Shown: positions 4,139 to 37,294 of the stretch, piece by piece | Layout: the number at the start of each line of letters is the position of its first letter | Numbering within the stretch: the first letter of the stretch is position 1 | Assembly: GCA_024742875.1 (NCBI GenBank) | Contig: JANSXP010000001.1 | Coordinates: 310,001-374,000, forward strand | Direction of reading: 5' to 3' | DNA from: Planctomycetaceae bacterium | Lineage (GTDB): Bacteria; Planctomycetota; Planctomycetia; Planctomycetales; Planctomycetaceae | Length of the DNA stretch: 64,000 nt | Translations under genes and position numbers: made by a program | The notes under the pieces: generated by a model | What the model was told of the DNA's origin: nothing | Databases searched by the model: none | Seen by the model: the letters and a program-made list of their open reading frames with translations, nothing else

Positions 4139-5710
4139 GTGATCGACTACAACCGCGTGCTCGCCGGTTCCGGCAATCTGATATCTCCGTCAGGTGCGAT
4201 CCTGCCAGGTGGAATCTTGTTACCCGCACTTCACATCGAGTCCATTGAACCTGCTGACGCTGGCGAAATGGTCGGCACAGTCGACATTGCCGATGTCGTC
4301 CGTCGTTTCGCTCACGAGCGCTGTTTAATCGTGCTCGAAAGCGCGGCCCACATCCGCGATCAGGACGCCCGCTATTCTTTTTTGACGGCCGATCCGGTCG
4401 ACGTGATCCGCGTGGACCAGGCGGTCTCTGGCGAGGATCCTTTCACGCGACTGCGTCAGGCACAGCAACGGTGGCCGACCGTGGAATCGCCCGTGCCGTT
4501 TTGTGGTGGTCTGGCTGGCCTGATGAGTTATGAACTGGGACATGCGTTTGAGCGGCTCCCTGAAGCCGGACAGGACACGTTTAGAACGCCCGCACTGCTG
4601 GCAGGACTGTTTGACTGGACCATTGTCTGGGATCATGTGGACAACTCCGTGCGGCTGTGCGTGCTCCGGCTGGATGGTGACAGTGCTGAGGCTGTGGCCC
4701 GACAGCAGCAGCGGCTCACCTGGCTGCGGGAGCGGCTCGCGCGAAAGCCAGTCGCGGAAGCGGTCGGACCTTGCGCCGGCGTCACGTCGGATGTCCGCAG
4801 CACGGCCGAACAGAGTGGCCCAAACTCAGGGCTGCTCGCCGAGCATCGCCTGCCCGCAGCGGCCGATGTCAGGTCGTGCTTCACCAGCGAGGCGTACCAG
4901 CAGGCGGTCGAGCGGGTGATCGATTACATTCGCGCGGGCGACATTTTTCAGGCCAACTTAGCGCAGCAGATGACGGCTCCGTGGGATGAGGGTCCGTTTT
5001 CTTTGTACCGGCGGATTCGCGAACACAATCCGGCGCCGTTTTGTGGCTGGCTGAAGACCGATCAGTTTTCCGTCATCAGCGCATCGCCGGAGCGTTTTTT
5101 GCGCGTGACAGCGTCCGGGCACGTGGAGACGCGACCGATCAAGGGCACGCGTCGGCGTCATCGCTCTCCGATTGCCGATTTGTTTACCGGCGATGAGCTG
5201 TCAGCCAGCGAGAAAGATCGGGCGGAAAATGTGATGATCGTGGACCTGCTTCGCAATGACCTGTCCCGCGTCTGTCGACCCGGATCGGTGAAGGTCACCG
5301 GGGTTTGTGAGATCGAAGTGTTCGAAACCGTACAGCACCTGGTGTCCACGGTGGTGGGTCAGCTGGGCGAGGGGCGTGACGTCTGGGATCTGTGTGCCGC
5401 GGCGATTCCCGGCGGTTCCATTACCGGTGCCCCCAAAATTCGCGCGATGGAAATCATCGCCGAACTGGAACCGATCGCTCGCGGCGCCTACTGCGGCAAT
5501 CTGTTTTATCTGGGTGCAGCGGGTGAATTCGACAGCAGCATTCTGATACGTACGTTCACGCTGCAGGATGGCGTGGTGCAGTTTCCCGTCGGCGGCGGAA
5601 TTGTGGCGGATTCGCAGCCGACGGATGAGTATCAGGAGACACTGCATAAGGCGGCCGGCATGCTCAAAGCGCTGCAGCATCCTGCGGAGTCTGACGGAAA
5701 CCTTCGCTAA
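4139..5710 (+). CDS. pabB: aminodeoxychorismate synthase component I
   Basis: This enzyme combines chorismate with ammonia from a glutaminase partner to give 4-amino-4-deoxychorismate, the precursor of p-aminobenzoate for folate or other pterins. The chorismate-binding domain fills the second half: GDIFQANLAQQM, SASPERFLRV, RPIKGTRRR, ENVMIVDLLRNDLSRV and PGGSITGAPKIRAMEII. The PIKGT motif carries the Lys typical of PabB, where TrpE has PIAGT. No PabA or TrpG glutaminase and no PabC lyase lie nearby. The GTG at 4139 gives 523 residues. The ATG at 4268 would give 480 residues and keeps all recognisable domains, so the start is uncertain. The gene lies 122 bases after the DHPS-like gene, in the same direction. 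Confidence 0.88.
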   Translation: MIDYNRVLAGSGNLISPSGAILPGGILLPALHIESIEPADAGEMVGTVDIADVVRRFAHERCLIVLESAAHIRDQDARYSFLTADPVDVIRVDQAVSGEDPFTRLRQAQQRWPTVESPVPFCGGLAGLMSYELGHAFERLPEAGQDTFRTPALLAGLFDWTIVWDHVDNSVRLCVLRLDGDSAEAVARQQQRLTWLRERLARKPVAEAVGPCAGVTSDVRSTAEQSGPNSGLLAEHRLPAAADVRSCFTSEAYQQAVERVIDYIRAGDIFQANLAQQMTAPWDEGPFSLYRRIREHNPAPFCGWLKTDQFSVISASPERFLRVTASGHVETRPIKGTRRRHRSPIADLFTGDELSASEKDRAENVMIVDLLRNDLSRVCRPGSVKVTGVCEIEVFETVQHLVSTVVGQLGEGRDVWDLCAAAIPGGSITGAPKIRAMEIIAELEPIARGAYCGNLFYLGAAGEFDSSILIRTFTLQDGVVQFPVGGGIVADSQPTDEYQETLHKAAGMLKALQHPAESDGNLR

Positions 5711-35337: not shown

Positions 35338-35410
35338 TTTCTAGCCTTTGACACTCCGGTATGGCTCACGCCTGCAAACGTCTTGCGGCAAAATCAGGCC
35401 ATAAAAAAAG

Positions 35411-35482
<72 letters not shown>

Positions 35483-35760
35483 ATAGGTGGCGCCGCAAAC
35501 GCCGCGATCGAATTGTTACCGCCCATAAATCACTGCGGCGGTAAGACGGAGGATTATGGACGAATAGTTGGTGTCGTCAACCGAATCGACGACAAATCAC
35601 ATCGGAAAACTCACGTCGTATCTTTGGTGAAATCAGGCCAGAATCGGACAGCCAGCGGGGATTGTGATTCCCCGGGCGCCCGACGTGATGTGAGACGCCT
35701 ATCTGACGCCCGGGCCGTCAGACTGACAGGCCCACTGTTCATTTTACAGTGCTACGAATG

Positions 35761-35788
35761 ACCCGTGTGGCACCCGTGCCACACGGGT
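35761..35788. repeat. perfect 13-bp hairpin, ACCCGTGTGGCAC-CC-GTGCCACACGGGT
   Basis: This 28-base palindrome has a two-base loop, is GC-rich and has no T tract, so it is not an obvious terminator. It marks the start of a 330-base non-coding stretch that ends in a strong plus-strand terminator. It may be a genome-wide repeat or the 5' stem of a structured RNA. Confidence 0.6.
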
Positions 35789-36120
35789 GTTGCTCCTGTG
35801 CATCGGGGGTGTAAGTCCCTGCCAGCAATATGTTTACGGTGGGACTTGGAAATGGAACGGCCGTGTTGCGATCCCGAAGGGCGTCAGGTCGTTACAAGCT
35901 GTATGACCGGCTGGGCCCTGGTCTGGCGCCTAACAGGCTTCATGGTAATCACTTACGTCTTCTGGCTGACTGGAGGGACTTTCGGCACGGTACATGCAAT
36001 ATCGACTCTCATAACCCCCCCCCCGGGGACTGATTTCGGCAGCAAGGTACCTAACCCCCACCGCGCTGCCTGACCCCCATCAGTCTCCCAAGAAGCCGGA
36101 CGAAAGTCCGGCTTTTTTTT
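35789..36120 (+). ncRNA. candidate structured non-coding RNA ending in a terminator
   Basis: There is no plausible CDS on the plus strand from 35483 to 36178, yet a strong rho-independent terminator stands at 36093-36120 with no plus-strand gene upstream for many kilobases. The interval contains GTGTAAGTCCC, GTGGGACTTGG, GAGGGACTTTCGG and further short complementary blocks (AGTCCC / GGGACT), plus a C10-G4 tract. This looks like an RNA fold. The GTGTAAGTCCC phrase recalls the 5' part of group II-type introns, but I see no domain V or reverse transcriptase. The 5' end and identity are unknown. Confidence 0.4.
36093..36120 (+). terminator. intrinsic terminator with no CDS upstream
   Basis: AAGCCGGAC-GAAA-GTCCGGCTT gives a 9-bp stem with a stable GAAA tetraloop, followed by T7. 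It is the strongest evidence that something non-coding is transcribed rightward here. Confidence 0.9.
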
Positions 36121-36178
36121 GCGCGGTCCAAAGTGCTAACGTATCTGAAGACATCCGGTCGGGCGGCCGTTTTGGTTC

Positions 36179-37294
36179 TTGAGATTTTTCGCGAGACTTC
36201 CCATCCGCATTACGTTCGTTATTCCCACTTTGGATCAGTCCGGCGCCGAACGGCAGTTGTGGCTGCTCGCCTCACAGCTTCCCGATCATTTTGATCCGGA
36301 AGTGGTGGCCCTGTCGCGAGGTGGATATTTTGCCGACCGGTTGACGGAATGCGGCGTTCCGGTGACTGTCCTCGAAAAACGATTTCGCTTCGATCCATTG
36401 ACGTGGTACCGACTAAGAAGGCATTTGCACCGGCGCCAGCCGGACGTAATTCAGTCGTTTCTGTTTGCTGCCAATGCCTATGTGCGTTTGCCGGGCGTGG
36501 CGCCCCGCAGTGCTCGGGTGGTGATCAGTGAACGTTGTGTGGACAGCTGGAAGAGTGGCTGGCAGCTGGCTATGGATCGCCGGCTGCGGAGTAAGATGAA
36601 CCGAATGACGGCCAATTCGCAGGCCGTGGCCGATTTTTATCGACAGCAGGTTGGGCTCAGCGCGGCGGACATTGACGTCATCCCCAATGGCGTGCCAGCG
36701 CCGGCCAATGACCGAGTCGGCGATCAGGTAAACCTGCGGCAGGAACTGGGGCTGCCGCCCGACAGTCGACTGGTTGGATTTGTCGGCCGACTGGCCGTGC
36801 AGAAGCGCCTGAAGGATTTGATCTGGGCGTTTCATCTGCTGCAAAGTGCGCTCGAGAATGTTTACCTGGTTGTGATGGGAGAAGGAGACCAGCGACAGCC
36901 GCTGGCCGATTTGGCGCGCGACATGGGGTGCCGTGAACGGATCTTCTTCACTGGCCATTCGCCCCACGCCGGTCGGCTGATTCCGCAGCTGGATGTCTTT
37001 TGTCTTCCCAGTGAGTTTGAGGGTATGTCGAACAGCCTCATGGAAGCACTGTCGAGCGGTGTGCCGGTCGCCGTCAGTGACATCGCGGCGAATCGAGAGC
37101 TGGTGCAATCCGAAGAAACAGGTCTCGTGTTTCCGCTGGGAAATGGCCCGGAAATGGCACGGGCGCTGAAACGACTGCTCGAAGACGACGATCTGGTGCA
37201 GAAGTTGACGCAGAATGCGCAAACGCTGATTCGTGATCAGCACAGCGTGCGGCAAATGGTGAATCGTCATGTGGATCTGTATCAGCAGTTGTAG
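36179..37294 (+). CDS. glycosyltransferase family 4 (GT-B)
   Basis: This 371-residue retaining glycosyltransferase would add a sugar to a lipid-linked or surface glycan. The N-terminal domain begins IRITFVIPTLDQSGAERQLW with the family's GGAE-like loop, and the C-terminal domain has VGFVGRLAVQKRLKDLIWAF and the nucleotide-binding EFEGMSNSLMEALSSGVPV with the E-x7-E pair. The only usable start is a TTG at 36179. It leads a co-directional trio with an AsnB-like amidotransferase and an AMP-forming ligase. Confidence 0.85.
   Translation: MRFFARLPIRITFVIPTLDQSGAERQLWLLASQLPDHFDPEVVALSRGGYFADRLTECGVPVTVLEKRFRFDPLTWYRLRRHLHRRQPDVIQSFLFAANAYVRLPGVAPRSARVVISERCVDSWKSGWQLAMDRRLRSKMNRMTANSQAVADFYRQQVGLSAADIDVIPNGVPAPANDRVGDQVNLRQELGLPPDSRLVGFVGRLAVQKRLKDLIWAFHLLQSALENVYLVVMGEGDQRQPLADLARDMGCRERIFFTGHSPHAGRLIPQLDVFCLPSEFEGMSNSLMEALSSGVPVAVSDIAANRELVQSEETGLVFPLGNGPEMARALKRLLEDDDLVQKLTQNAQTLIRDQHSVRQMVNRHVDLYQQL

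Follow-up and report, generated by a model that had tools for sequence, protein, structure and literature searches.

Sigma-54-controlled small RNAs are a known kind of regulator. Qrr1 of Vibrio follows a sigma-54/activator logic (PMC10162802), and its Qrr siblings as well as GlmY of E. coli are sigma-54-dependent small RNAs (PMC4211561). A second relevant system is LhrC of Listeria, a multicopy stress-induced small RNA that binds lapB at its G-rich ribosome-binding region through three C-rich sites (PMC4132741). For planctomycetes, PMC12316311 places predicted sigma-54 promoters upstream of genes for stress responses, chaperones, proteases, and CsrA, and a table in a review (PMC9029176) lists 8 annotated small RNAs for the whole PVC group vs. 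345 for Proteobacteria.

Here, we analyzed a 64-kb window (the whole stretch of planctomycete DNA under study) and found that one of its intergenic regions probably harbors a free-standing gene for a sigma-54-dependent, trans-acting small regulatory RNA, about 112 nt in length (Table 1). Like Qrr and GlmY, the window RNA would be short and intergenic, combining a sigma-54 promoter with a presumed upstream activator logic and an intrinsic terminator, but it has no sequence or Rfam relation to these RNAs and comes from another phylum. With the C-rich-loop small RNAs (LhrC, RsaE, and others) it shares several unpaired C-rich sites that are predicted in loop, linker, or tail. In contrast to the window RNA, LhrC is controlled by the LisRK two-component system in a low-GC Gram-positive host and its motif is UCCC, whereas the window RNA has plain C runs.

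Table 1. Features of the intergenic region between tRNA-Gly and the glycosyltransferase gene (window coordinates)
Feature	Position	Strand	Remarks
tRNA-Gly(gcc)	35410..35482	-	Divergent neighbor and synteny anchor; tRNA search
Sigma-70-like promoter of tRNA-Gly (TTGACG, 16, CATAAT)	35553..35580	-	Promoter scan; surrounding block aligns in 7/7 genus relatives
Upstream motif ACTTACG	35951..35957	+	Proposed activator site; part of imperfect palindrome GTAATCACTTAC, 35945-35956
Sigma-54 -24/-12 promoter, cGGCACggtacatGCa	35983..35998	+	Identical spacing in 5/5 orthologs
Predicted small RNA, about 112 nt	36009..36120	+	Start predicted 12 bases downstream of the -12 C
C10 run of the 5' tail, predicted to be unpaired	36015..36024	+	Mean unpaired probability 0.99
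Hairpin with C5 in loop (36055-36059) and C5 in bulge (36074-36078)	36025..36088	+	Predicted fold
Intrinsic terminator, GAAA loop, T8	36090..36120	+	Stem 36090-36101/36106-36117, T-run to 36120
Glycosyltransferase gene	36179..37294	+	Downstream neighbor, outside the RNA unit

Gene calls together with profile and tRNA searches over the window placed two clpP genes, tig, and tRNA-Gly to the left of the terminator, all on the minus strand, which bears out the statement of an earlier note on this DNA that no plus-strand gene lies upstream. To the right, a glycosyltransferase, an asparagine synthase, and an AMP-binding enzyme (Pfam) follow on the plus strand. Since all left-hand genes are on the minus strand, the terminator lacks a preceding plus-strand gene, and because these genes diverge from the plus-strand genes on the right, it should end a transcript originating inside the 700-base gap. 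Two open reading frames of the gap (102 and 67 amino acids) overlap the interval that the earlier note had marked (35789-36120). Neither of them matched a Pfam family, and tblastn of the seven corresponding intergenic regions of genus relatives yielded no credible counterpart (best E 0.038 over 11 residues). On these grounds a coding sequence was rejected, as the earlier note had expected. A repeated element was also rejected, since at E<=0.001 the source genome returned only the query and the palindrome within it. A plasmid piece was rejected, too. Two further observations concern the gap outside the RNA. The tRNA-Gly promoter region (35543-35630, minus strand) is its best conserved non-coding block (BLASTN, 7/7 genus relatives), and conservation there extends beyond the need of a bare promoter. 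Positions 35762-35787 form a perfect palindrome (arms of 12 bases, center of 2 bases; CCCGTGTGGCAC..GTGCCACACGGG), which has no T-run behind it on either strand and the core pattern of which is absent from every other locus fetched.

The intrinsic terminator had previously been placed at 36093-36120 with a GAAA loop and seven T. Its hairpin and loop were confirmed, with somewhat wider limits and a run of eight T; folding and a second scan listed this hairpin and a simple hairpin scan omitted it. When we folded the entire marked interval, the structure was moderately beyond chance (z -2.64, 1/100 shuffles as good). Folding of 36008-36120 gave a strong signal (-48 kcal/mol, z -7.41, 0/200 shuffles as good), and the start was placed near 36009 because promoter and conservation put it there. 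From the sequence comparisons, the terminator appears to be real and to end a real transcription unit, which is shorter than the marked interval and probably comprises about its last third. The claim of a structured, untranslated plus-strand RNA ending at the terminator was upheld by comparison with relatives, and the idea that all 330 bases form one RNA was not. The AGTCCC and GGGACT words do exist, the former once (35814) and the latter three times (35841, 35975, 36026) instead of twice. The block 35813-35847 (AAGTCCC/GGGACTT) is able to pair and aligns in no relative examined. Similarly, the 5' half (35789-35950), including the supposedly group-II-like words GTGTAAGTCCC, did not align in any relative examined, and BLASTN of 35789-36125 in 57 relatives found nothing convincing, with short matches only (best E 0.009 over 23 bases). 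Lack of conservation, which the earlier note had named as speaking against its proposal, holds for the 5' half and is untrue for the region from promoter to terminator. Immediately behind the T-run we often observed a GCG-containing word (GCGCGG, GTGCGC, ATGCGC, AAGCGC), namely in the window (36121 on), in the genus relatives G003-G006, and in several units of the GGCCCGC-loop RNAs described below.

The promoter block reads TTTCGGCACGGTACATGCAA in the source genome, and GGCAC and GC were found at the exact -24/-12 spacing in all five genomes that carry the unit. In each of them the box starts 99-130 bases ahead of the T-run, the right distance for a sigma-54-dependent small RNA, and the ACTTACG motif precedes the -24 GG by 33-36 bases. 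The unit is free-standing and non-coding with an intrinsic terminator at its end, and sigma-54 itself is encoded in the source genome (rpoN, PF04552, 214.5 bits, cut-off 22.8). Boxes were scored out of 20 with weights set from background knowledge. Nine sites of the window, the box of the window RNA included, scored 18 or more, indicating that a good box alone is not rare, and for this reason the case for the promoter rests on recurrence. In dinucleotide shuffles of each gap, an equally good box occurred at that place in 0.1%-0.45% per genome, and a box plus an upstream ACTTRC motif was obtained in 0/2000 shuffles in each of the five genomes. Across the eight genomes of the genus (the source genome and G001-G007), a loose box-plus-T-run pattern gave no excess over its reversed-pattern control (54 vs. 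53 rows); a tighter box (TTYGGCACGNNNCATGC, one mismatch allowed) gave 97 vs. 34. Taken together, it is very likely that the -24/-12 promoter with its upstream motif drives the RNA, with a presumed enhancer-binding activator acting from ACTTACG, and that transcription starts near 36009 and stops at the intrinsic terminator.

The neighborhood of tig and tRNA-Gly is widely kept: tig was found in 162 of the 170 family genomes, and tRNA-Gly(gcc) was present at 25/25 further tig loci scanned. As DNA sequence searches had found nothing convincing, we compared the gap upstream of tRNA-Gly by position. Here, a strong plus-strand terminator was detected in five of the eight genus genomes (source, G003, G004, G005, G006), with the T-run 518-650 bases from the tRNA, and these five have the same order of parts, which is motif, sigma-54 box, C-rich RNA, and strong terminator. 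BLASTN of the window gap against the other seven aligned the tRNA-promoter block in 7/7 and the terminator in 3/7 (G003, G004, G005); a 17-base box block (35981-35997) aligned in G005 only (E 0.61), and there was one 17-base chance-level match in G002. G001, G002, and G007, which form one clade in the tig tree (100/100 support), have neither strong terminator nor box at the corresponding place. They carry weak hairpins only (-7.0 to -7.4 kcal/mol), and box-like sites scoring 17.0 lie elsewhere in G007. A TTACG-like word is retained in all three, which would fit loss of the unit. For G012 the contig ends 504 bases past the tRNA, so that no presence call is possible.

In the predicted fold of the window RNA the C10 tail is followed by the hairpin with its loop C5 and bulge C5, both with an unpaired probability of 1.0, and then by the terminator. 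Folding was beyond chance for all five units (z -3.3 to -7.4; four orthologs -3.3 to -6.3), and the fold of G005 is almost wholly terminator. Each species has at least one C-run with a predicted unpaired probability of 0.8 or more, which is the unpaired C-rich site typical of LhrC-like small RNAs; in G006 the C-runs ahead of the terminator are only CCC. The RNA cores contain 36%-46% C and 16%-22% G, and the upstream gap contains 22%-30% C and 21%-31% G; in G004 there are C-runs upstream of the box as well. Alignment of the five RNAs gave no shared fold beyond the terminator. Since unpaired C-runs recur and no fold other than the terminator can be aligned, the recurring feature appears to be exposed C together with a stabilizing hairpin rather than one fixed fold.

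The search with all Rfam models that the earlier note had proposed returned no family over the gathering threshold for the RNA, and a known Rfam RNA was rejected on this basis. The tRNA is the sole Rfam match in the window, to which a permissive search adds two chance-level matches. BjrC1505 reached 17.7 bits against a gathering cut-off of 50. SorX reached 31.0 bits against a cut-off of 46.6 in the G004 ortholog, on a stretch ending in the G004 terminator.

The box-plus-T-run search of the eight genus genomes, which also returned the five window-type units, led to a second recurrent RNA that consists of a sigma-54 box, a hairpin with the loop GGCCCGC, and a terminator. A covariance model (R1), built from four of these RNAs with the promoter bases left out, gave 17 matches in 11/170 family genomes. 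Both the loop and a sigma-54 box (score >=18 of 20) are present in each of the 12 top matches, 8 of which were new; the five weakest lack the loop and were dropped. In the alignment of 13 sequences, pairing holds in 97.8% of the cells, and for 23 of the 26 pairs both partners vary. None of 500 shuffles reached any of the five measures and slid structures fell to 47%-63%, although the alignment, having been fitted to the model, leans toward such values. A further model (R2) matched 10/397 class genomes, all within the same family, and this tally is a lower bound, as G002 is absent from it despite a copy with a local score of 49 bits; at least one match is probably due to chance. Of the four genomes newly matched, G116 and G184 show the loop together with a box (scoring 19.5 and 16.5, respectively), G060 has an altered loop and no clear box, and the match in G120 is probably due to chance. 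The units of G085 and G129 scored 32.0 and 29.8 bits with R2, that of G010 was weakly matched (16.6 bits, E 0.047), and the units of genus g71 were not significant (E 1.6 or more, or absent from the matches); the g71 units were assigned to the family solely on the basis of loop, box, and layout.

The source genome carries four copies, two of them in tandem (L189:3787-3871(-) and 4330-4415(-); L187:1601-1686(-); L208:1501-1585(-)), and further loci are L188, L190, L191, L192, L195-L199, L206, L214-L222, L226, and L228. When ten loci, six with GGCCCGC-loop units, were compared with Rfam 15, no family matched these units. Judged by sequence, the GGCCCGC-loop RNAs would represent a multi-copy sigma-54 RNA family with strong covariation, absent from Rfam 15. 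The accessible parts of the literature searched, including PMC12316311, PMC9029176, and PMC2754498, contained no publication on them or on the window RNA. By eye, units without ACTTACG often show GAAAA...TTTTC-like words about 30-60 bases before the box GG (L193, L196, L197, L207, L208), which are perhaps the site of another activator.

In layout the window RNA and the GGCCCGC-loop RNAs are alike (sigma-54 box, hairpin, terminator). However, the window RNA and its four orthologs lack the loop and match neither R1 nor R2, and membership in that family was rejected. What is shared is the control region of one sub-type. ACTTACG occurs at the spacing of the window RNA in GGCCCGC-loop members of several other genera. 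A pattern of motif, box, and T-run derived from window-type units and run on 170 family genomes recovered four of the five window-type units (the window copy was missed, as its spacer of 115 is just beyond the pattern limit) and 10 other loci. Nine of these 10 carry a GGCCCGC-loop RNA and that of G143 does not; six of the 10 are near-identical RNAs of one genus. The row count showed little excess (16 vs. 10 in the reversed-pattern control), and the weight of such loose pattern searches lies in what recurs and not in counts. As the nine loci were chosen by the motif, only L226 and L228, which belong to the same sub-type and were found by the RNA model alone, test the link independently; both have TTAC at the motif place. 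Of the 24 distinct GGCCCGC-loop units tabulated, the remaining 13 are without TTAC there. By motif and spacing, the window RNA has a control region in common with one GGCCCGC-loop sub-type, while its RNA falls outside that family.

Several other explanations were weighed. The unit might be the 5' leader of the glycosyltransferase operon, with the terminator acting as attenuator behind the sigma-54 promoter. In the source genome the glycosyltransferase starts some 60 bases past the T-run, and in G003 and G006, too, it is the gene behind the unit. In G004 and G005, however, the unit still adjoins tRNA-Gly and the next gene is convergent and unrelated (chlorite dismutase and DUF2007, respectively); in G004 the glycosyltransferase is some 60 kb distant, and a search of G005 at E<=1e-40 did not find it. 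Given this different downstream gene, the unit is not simply a glycosyltransferase leader, and G001, G002, and G007 conversely have the gene without the unit. We rejected this unlikely reading. More remote still is a group II intron remnant, which the earlier note had suggested, or a longer RNA covering the whole marked interval. The AAGTCCC and GGGACTT words can pair, but no alignment of the 5' half was obtained with any relative examined, and the only promoter-like site for a longer transcript is a 9-of-12 sigma-70-like one (35723-35750). The closest approach to group II was a 13.8-bit match of a plastid domain V (cmscan, E<=10), which lies on the terminator itself. No domain V exceeded the cut-off in window or genome, as had been noted before, RF00029 gave one 24-bit match elsewhere in the genome vs. 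a cut-off of 40, and a group II remnant was rejected.

A chance coincidence of an unused box and an unused terminator in a non-coding gap would be in keeping with the frequency of sigma-54-like boxes and with the fact that the RNA is known here from sequence alone; because five diverged genomes have the same arrangement, and box plus motif arose in 0/2000 shuffles of each, we regard it as improbable. The main rival keeps the sigma-54 small RNA and lets it act as decoy for a C-run-liking RNA-binding protein instead of pairing with mRNAs, in the manner of CrcZ, which is a decoy for a protein with A-rich sites. Recurrence of unpaired C-runs in surroundings that do not recur speaks for such a decoy, but the C-runs are equally suited to pairing with ribosome-binding sites, and we rate it as a minor possibility.

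For the preferred reading, a trans-acting small regulatory RNA, the predicted fold would hold unpaired C-runs in tail, loop, and bulge. By analogy with C-rich-loop small RNAs such as LhrC, these C-runs might then pair with G-rich stretches of distant mRNAs, most likely ribosome-binding sites, and lower their translation, which we judge an even prospect. Comparison with relatives supports promoter and terminator. The fold is a prediction, and activator, expression, targets, and direction of the effect are inferred.

At the level of the family, there is about an even chance that Planctomycetaceae possess a sigma-54 small-RNA network of at least two families, the multi-copy GGCCCGC-loop RNAs and the genus-level C-rich window RNA, the latter under an ACTTACG-type promoter like the one that drives a GGCCCGC-loop RNA in other genera. 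The window RNA may then be what this lineage itself produces under a common activator, acting post-transcriptionally within the sigma-54 response in the manner of Qrr or LhrC. More surprising than another sigma-54-controlled small RNA are the GGCCCGC-loop family with its covariation and the control motif common to one of its sub-types and the window RNA. If true, these findings would supply defined RNA genes, each with its promoter, fold, and conserved control motif, for a phylum with few described small RNAs. They would also add a covarying RNA family beyond Rfam 15 and would make post-transcriptional control in planctomycetes directly testable.
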